Below are positions 57,619 through 58,722 of a stretch of DNA of 64,000 nt, one piece after another (positions within the stretch are counted from its first letter, which is position 1; every line of letters begins with the position of its first letter). Below the pieces are notes generated by a model that was not told the DNA's origin, searched no databases, and saw only the letters and a list, made by a program, of their open reading frames with translations. The stretch lies in assembly GCA_021323865.1 (NCBI GenBank), contig JAJPKF010000024.1:73207-137206 (forward strand), written 5' to 3'. The DNA comes from Pseudomonadota bacterium. Lineage in GTDB: Bacteria; Chloroflexota; UBA5177; JAJPKF01. Both the position numbers and the translations under genes were made by a program.

Positions 57619-58722
57619 CTACCTCCCTCGCCAAGTGATCTCGGATGGTGCTTGCTGCCGGCCCCGGTGGCCCACACCGCGGTCGACCCCGTTGGGAGCG
57701 AGACTGCAGGTCACACGCGCTCCGGGACCAATATTGTCTGCCTTAGCTAGATCGGCCATATTCTGTGCGAGAGAAAGATATCCCCGGCTATTGATGTAGA
57801 TGCCGGTCTCACCTCGACCGCCGAAATCCGCAAACGTCCGTTCCAACGGATGTTCGTATAGGACACCTTTCACCGTAACGCGAAGCAGTGTTCCGTACTC
57901 GATGCCAAGGCTTGCAAGGTCATCGCGGAAAATGTCAGTCCAGACGTTGCCATATGGCAGATCAATATCAATGACTACACCCTCTATGGACCCGTCTTCT
58001 ATCGAGGCTACGGGGTGGGCGAAACGGACTATCGCTGGGTCGTCTAACCGACGGCCCACCGCCGCCAGCGGATAGCCGGCAGCCAGATGTGCCGACGGTA
58101 TTGCTACCATTTCCCTGCTATAGAATGTTGGCTCAGGCTTTCTCGGTATAACGTCAGTACTCGTGACCTCGTAGGCCTCCACATACCGATGCTCCTCGAT
58201 GACCCTAGTGAGTATGCCGTTGTTCGGCGCCACGTATATGTAGGAGCCATCGGCCCGCGGAAACCCGTCGCCTGATCCTGCCCACTGTCCGCGAGCGCCA
58301 CCAAGTGCGGCTCGTTCGATCCGGAGCGCGATGGAGTGGGTCTCCGTCCCGGTAGCAGGATAGGTGGTGGTGGCGAAGACCGTCCCCTCCGGGAAGAAGC
58401 GCGGGAGATCGACGATTAGGCGGCCACCCTGATCTATGTCGAAAGGGGTCATGGTATGACAGACATCGACGATAGTAAGAGATGGGCATATGCTCAGCAT
58501 TAGCCCCTTGCACTGGGCAACGGAGTCGTCCGTGTCGCCCAGGTCGCTCATGAACGCCAGAATAGGTCGACTTCCGGCGTCGTTGTTGCCGCCGCGTGCC
58601 TTCTCAACAAGCATGGACTCCAAACCTCCACCGTCCATCAGCAGGAACTGATCGAAGAGGCGTTTTTCAAGGTCCCCAGGCCTCGGCCCTTCATCACTCA
58701 TATCACGTTCTTTTCCCGACAT
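57619..58722 (-). CDS. flA: Fluorinase (5'-fluoro-5'-deoxyadenosine synthase)
   Basis: This 367-residue enzyme is predicted to join fluoride to S-adenosylmethionine, giving 5'-fluoro-5'-deoxyadenosine and methionine. It follows the S. cattleya FlA sequence, as I remember it, almost without gaps over 260 residues: [60 protein letters not shown] and NSRGYLS. Key residues map as Asp60 (FlA Asp16), Tyr121 (Tyr77), Thr124 (Thr80), Phe200 (Phe156) and Ser202 (Ser158); Trp50 is Phe94. The ~20-residue loop [14 protein letters not shown], which the chlorinase SalL and the SAM-hydroxide adenosyltransferases lack, is present. An N-terminal extension of ~50 residues ([16 protein letters not shown]) is unusual. 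The ATG at 58722 follows GGGAAGG. It is the first gene of the operon. Confidence 0.94.

Follow-up and report, generated by a model that had tools for sequence, protein, structure and literature searches.

Fluorinases are the established biological route to carbon–fluorine bonds from fluoride. Nearly all known ones are actinobacterial, and actinomycetes are the usual makers of fluorinated natural products. FlA of Streptomyces cattleya, FlA1 of Streptomyces sp. MA37 and NobA of Nocardia brasiliensis share an insertion loop and the fluoride/SAM pocket. In the nob/fl/fth clusters for 4-fluorothreonine the fluorinase gene is accompanied by genes for the trans-editing deacylase FthB, the fluorothreonine transaldolase (FTase) and an MtnA-type isomerase. 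All four are found together in Paractinoplanes and in N. brasiliensis, the fluorinase cluster of which has been characterised (PMC3999930), and the first three in several Streptomyces. On the S. cattleya megaplasmid pSCAT the gene for FthB, which protects the producer from fluorothreonine misincorporation (summarised in PMC7408626), adjoins the FTase gene. A fluorinase outside Actinobacteria is not new in itself, as the archaeal enzyme Fme (Methanosaeta sp. PtaU1.Bin055), about 50% identical to FlA, is known (PMC9234330). The chlorinase SalL and the DUF62 SAM hydrolases share fold and SAM chemistry with the fluorinases.

Here a 64,000-nucleotide stretch of a Chloroflexota contig (the window) was analysed. 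An island of ~21.7 kb, integrated at a tRNA-Met gene, very probably carries an intact-looking fluorometabolite operon with an isomerase that was recruited separately. The fluorinase has the loop and pocket of FlA, FlA1 and NobA, and the same partner genes (FthB, FTase, isomerase) lie beside it. It differs from the actinobacterial enzymes by a QNMA motif in place of RNAA, by F213Y, by its long separate branch and by terminal extensions. Compared with the nob/fl/fth clusters, the island is a tRNA-integrated element, its isomerase is separately derived and an orphan AAA-like gene is added.

The fluorinase gene (57619–58722, minus strand) encodes 367 amino acids and its frame is open throughout. 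It had been predicted from the sequence as a fluorinase gene, and this is borne out by family assignment, identity, phylogeny and fluorometabolite neighbours. The product scores 450 bits (E = 3e-135) with TIGR04507, the curated fluorinase equivalog of NCBI (cut-off 400), and far below the cut-offs of the SAM-hydrolase equivalogs. A PDB search returns the fluorinases 1rqp, 5b6i and 5lmz at ~1e-130 and SalL at 1e-53 to 1e-55. Identity is 64–68% to 12 actinobacterial fluorinases and about 36% to SalL; in the fold search, SalL and the DUF62 hydrolases are 19–37% identical. Fluorinases also rank first in a search with the predicted structure, with r.m.s. deviations of ~10 Å on the best matches. The AlphaFold model used is based on 11 sequences (mean pLDDT 62.5) and is too weak for structural claims. 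Thus, sequence comparison confirms a genuine member of the fluorinase family, which would turn over fluoride. The predicted N- and C-terminal extensions of ~50 and ~25 residues are both open reading frame. Start candidates are the ATG at 58722, which is preceded by GGGAAGG, and an ATG at residue 37; the true start may thus be internal to the 367-residue frame.

For ease of comparison, residues are numbered according to FlA. Asp60, Tyr121, Thr124, Ser202 and Phe200, the residues named in the original prediction, correspond to D16, Y77, T80, S158 and F156 in the alignment and are conserved as predicted. D21, Y157, D210, N215, W217, S269 and R270 are conserved as well. The 23-residue insertion loop is likewise intact. 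It was said to separate fluorinases from their relatives, and it is indeed missing from ten DUF62 proteins, which have Gly at the position of Ser158. The loop is not strictly diagnostic, however, because the active archaeal fluorinase lacks it (PMC9234330). The exchange of Trp50 for Phe had been regarded as odd. The exchange is present but ordinary: three of ten other fluorinases (from Streptomyces sp. SAJ15, S. iconiensis and a Streptosporangiales MAG) also have Phe at this position.

Among the 171 positions that are invariant in the 12 actinobacterial fluorinases, 24 are changed in the Chloroflexota enzyme. F213Y, R277Q and A279M occur in this enzyme only, out of the 13 fluorinases in the comparison. 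Due to the latter two exchanges the RNAA motif (277–280) is replaced by QNMA; the substrate contacts of R277 and A279 in FlA are presumably largely made by the main chain. Both are among the 11 residues given as substrate contacts of FlA (PMC9234330), and RNAA is regarded as a signature setting bacterial fluorinases apart (PMC12871659). The motif is not strictly required, since the archaeal enzyme, likewise a non-actinomycete fluorinase departing from RNAA and compared here by its published description, has YYGG and is still a fluorinase (PMC12871659, PMC9234330). According to the passage in PMC9277085 that cites Sun et al. 2016, the laboratory variants A279Y and F213Y/A279L raised the radiochemical conversion more than threefold. 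The improved variants and the archaeal YYGG argue against a loss of function through QNMA. At the level of sequence, F213Y together with A279M parallels the laboratory-evolved F213Y/A279L variant. The enzyme thus offers natural sequence variation at 213, 277 and 279, positions engineered for fluorine-18 labelling.

The same exchanges could indicate a fluorinase homologue with a shifted halide or substrate preference, e.g. a chlorinase, or a transhalogenase with 5'-chloro-5'-deoxyadenosine as its substrate. They are unique in the comparison, and laboratory selection for a non-native substrate yielded changes at 213 and 279 (PMC9277085). On the other hand, these laboratory variants still fluorinate, Ser158, Tyr77, Thr80 and the loop are all kept, and identity to SalL is far lower than to the fluorinases. 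Furthermore, the genes that come next after the fluorinase gene are specific for fluorothreonine. A shifted preference is therefore unlikely.

Grouping with the SAM-hydroxide adenosyltransferases had been named as the observation that would speak against a fluorinase. In the tree, the enzyme falls into a fluorinase clade (support 100/100) apart from the ten DUF62 proteins. The actinobacterial fluorinases are 75–98% identical to one another and only 64–68% to the Chloroflexota enzyme, which therefore forms a deep, long branch. A clade of the actinobacterial fluorinases that excludes the Chloroflexota one is neither supported nor rejected by the data (p-AU 0.30), and the Chloroflexota enzyme may branch outside or within them. 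Among 400 sampled genomes of the phylum, the host alone has a fluorinase above the TIGR04507 cut-off, and none of 14 controls has one. An FTase is present in one of 251 phylum genomes, again the host. Apart from the host's enzyme, the named fluorinases found all come from Actinobacteria. On viral contigs, phages and plasmids only distant DUF62 matches were detected, and no fluorinase. No Chloroflexota fluorinase is reported in the open-access papers searched; further ones may already be deposited in sequence databases such as UniRef.

The genes of the apparent operon are arranged in the order fluorinase, FthB-like deacylase, orphan AAA-like protein, FTase and MtnA-type isomerase, all on the minus strand. 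The FthB-like deacylase (57123–57677; tRNA_edit family, PF04073) is 58–70% identical to the deacylases encoded next to fluorinase or FTase genes of Actinobacteria, that of S. cattleya pSCAT among them. Its start is uncertain because the frame overlaps the fluorinase gene. The FTase (53129–55096) reaches 759 bits with TIGR04506 (cut-off 650). Both its SHMT and its class II aldolase domain (Pfam SHMT and Aldolase_II) are present, and it contains the motif THKTLFGPQKG. It is 46–51% identical to actinobacterial FTases, including that of S. cattleya. In a further comparison, identity is 48–52% to actinobacterial FTases and 59–76% among these. This is the same pattern of divergence as in the fluorinase. 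The pathway assignment is based on the two equivalogs above cut-off, fluorinase and FTase, and on the conserved gene company.

The orphan protein (55115–57163, 682 residues) has weak similarity to AAA ATPases (PF00004, E = 0.007, below cut-off). Homologue searches found no full-length relative, and similarity is confined to the AAA region (29%) in one other Chloroflexota genome. The gene was also considered as part of a defence system, a reading that was dropped as PADLOC gives no match. Upstream of the fluorinase gene, a sigma-70-like promoter match (TTAACA-18-TATCAT, 58888–58917, minus strand) is weak evidence; one such match was found in 50400–59400 and 2.7 are expected by chance. Downstream of the cluster a large serine recombinase is encoded (50442–51857, minus strand; PF00239, PF07508, PF13408).

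The isomerase (51988–53118, minus strand; TIGR00512) is the candidate 5-deoxy-5-fluororibose-1-phosphate isomerase. With a standard start its frame covers 51988–52950, and it stays open and homologous further upstream to ~53118. Between 52950 and 53118 there is no ATG, GTG or TTG upstream of the first ATG, which suggests a CTG-type start just past the FTase stop. With the MtnA encoded elsewhere in the host genome (contig C17) the island isomerase shares 59% identity, and with the isomerases of actinobacterial fluorinase loci 43–45%. In a tree of 38 sequences it is the sister of the host MtnA (100/98), and the data reject a grouping with the actinobacterial cluster isomerases (p-AU 2e-6). Methionine salvage has therefore supplied the isomerase step independently in this lineage and in Actinobacteria. 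As the tree shows, the island copy was recruited from this pathway in a close host relative. This origin argues that the cluster resided in relatives of the Chloroflexota host, and also argues against a complete, recent arrival of the cluster from an actinomycete.

Family membership and active-site residues suggest the following pathway. The fluorinase would convert fluoride and SAM to 5'-fluoro-5'-deoxyadenosine and methionine. An MTAP-type nucleoside phosphorylase of the host, the gene of which lies off the island, would release 5-fluororibose-1-phosphate, and the island isomerase would form the ribulose phosphate. From this, a host aldolase would produce fluoroacetaldehyde. The FTase would exchange fluoroacetaldehyde onto threonine and yield 4-fluorothreonine, and the FthB-like deacylase would clear mischarged fluorothreonyl-tRNA as self-protection. 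The PNP family is represented in the host genome on contigs C17, C9 and C20 only. The MTAP gene adjoins the host MtnA gene on C17. A second PNP-family gene is split over two contig ends (C9:1–446 and C20:1–273) that share sequence; thus, these contigs are probably neighbours. The host is equipped for fluoride handling, as a fluoride riboswitch precedes its crcB on contig C23 (L036:4777–4836, plus strand), away from the island; no such riboswitch is present within the window.

None of the island's open reading frames was recognised as encoding a homologue of the phosphorylase FlB, an FthC-type exporter, the fluoroacetyl-CoA thioesterase FlK or a regulator known from such clusters. These missing auxiliary genes, the exchanges R277Q and A279M at contact residues and the full-length isomerase frame that has no standard start all stand against a functional pathway. 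The missing genes and the isomerase start would also fit a decaying remnant without present activity. Against this, all five frames of the operon are open with no stop interrupting any of them, and the catalytic motifs are kept. Decay is thus very unlikely, and an intact-looking operon is the preferred description.

The left boundary of the island is formed by the tRNA-Met(CAT) gene (37614–37689, plus strand), whose 3' part (37645–37689) represents attL. A 45-bp direct repeat of this 3' end at 59314–59358 (plus strand; 44 of 45 positions identical) represents attR. Just inside the boundaries lie two copies of a 20-bp repeat (family D3, both plus strand), GTACAGTGTTTGTACAGTAG at 37783–37802 on the left and a 95% identical one at 59178–59197 on the right; the left copy is a possible integrase arm site. 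A tyrosine integrase is encoded near the tRNA gene (39734–41134; PF00589, E = 5e-23). It is followed by a type IV coupling or TraG-like ATPase (43132–45042; PF13401, PF10412), a protein of the replication-relaxation family (44946–45629; PF13814) and a small helix-turn-helix protein that is a candidate excisionase (45648–46103; PF12728), all four on the minus strand. The coupling ATPase is rarer (three of 151 genomes). The fluorinase operon is located at the end of the island far from the tRNA gene. With the tRNA 3' end repeated on both sides and a tyrosine integrase, the island has, as judged from sequence, the anatomy of an integrative element.

The GC content is ~65% before the tRNA gene and 57–62% after it, and 65% is regained only by ~63 kb. 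This difference from the flanks, together with the actinobacterial origin of all other named fluorinases, could point to a piece of an actinobacterial contig that was joined into a Chloroflexota bin. However, the island is internal to a contig of 154 kb with att copies on both sides, and its isomerase is the sister of the host's own gene. The integrase has its best relatives within the host's order (46%) and at another place in the host genome (45%). Moreover, the shikimate genes on the island contig are of the host lineage. The EPSP synthase among them is closest to genomes of the same order, and the contig therefore belongs to the host. Misassignment is accordingly extremely improbable. The host assembly, to which the island is assigned here, is a 92% complete draft of 2.96 Mb; the set of relatives searched contains no other genome from its family.

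In its widest form, the interpretation is tentative and rather doubtful: carbon–fluorine biosynthesis may ride on an integrative element among Chloroflexota, with a pathway completed by a salvage isomerase and a 213/279-variant fluorinase of altered scope. The locus suggests that carbon–fluorine chemistry has spread, and has partly been re-assembled, outside actinomycetes. With a divergent non-actinobacterial fluorinase on an element and a separately recruited enzyme, the spread and assembly of organofluorine metabolism become testable.

Relatives within the phylum include small closed genomes with 20–30 reductive dehalogenases, which suggests Dehalococcoidia and thereby a host in the Chloroflexota. 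Close to the left end of the element and within it, the region 37836–39690 contains a candidate defence gene (PADLOC PDC-M14A) and, adjoining it, a Ser/Thr protein kinase that resembles PD-T4-6/mads_6. Three uncharacterised element genes (529, 305 and 235 residues) at 46895–50161 on the plus strand have no family match above cut-off. Outside the element, a repeat protein (61941–63443) contains a 195-bp tandem duplication at 62550–62939, the copies of which are 72% alike.
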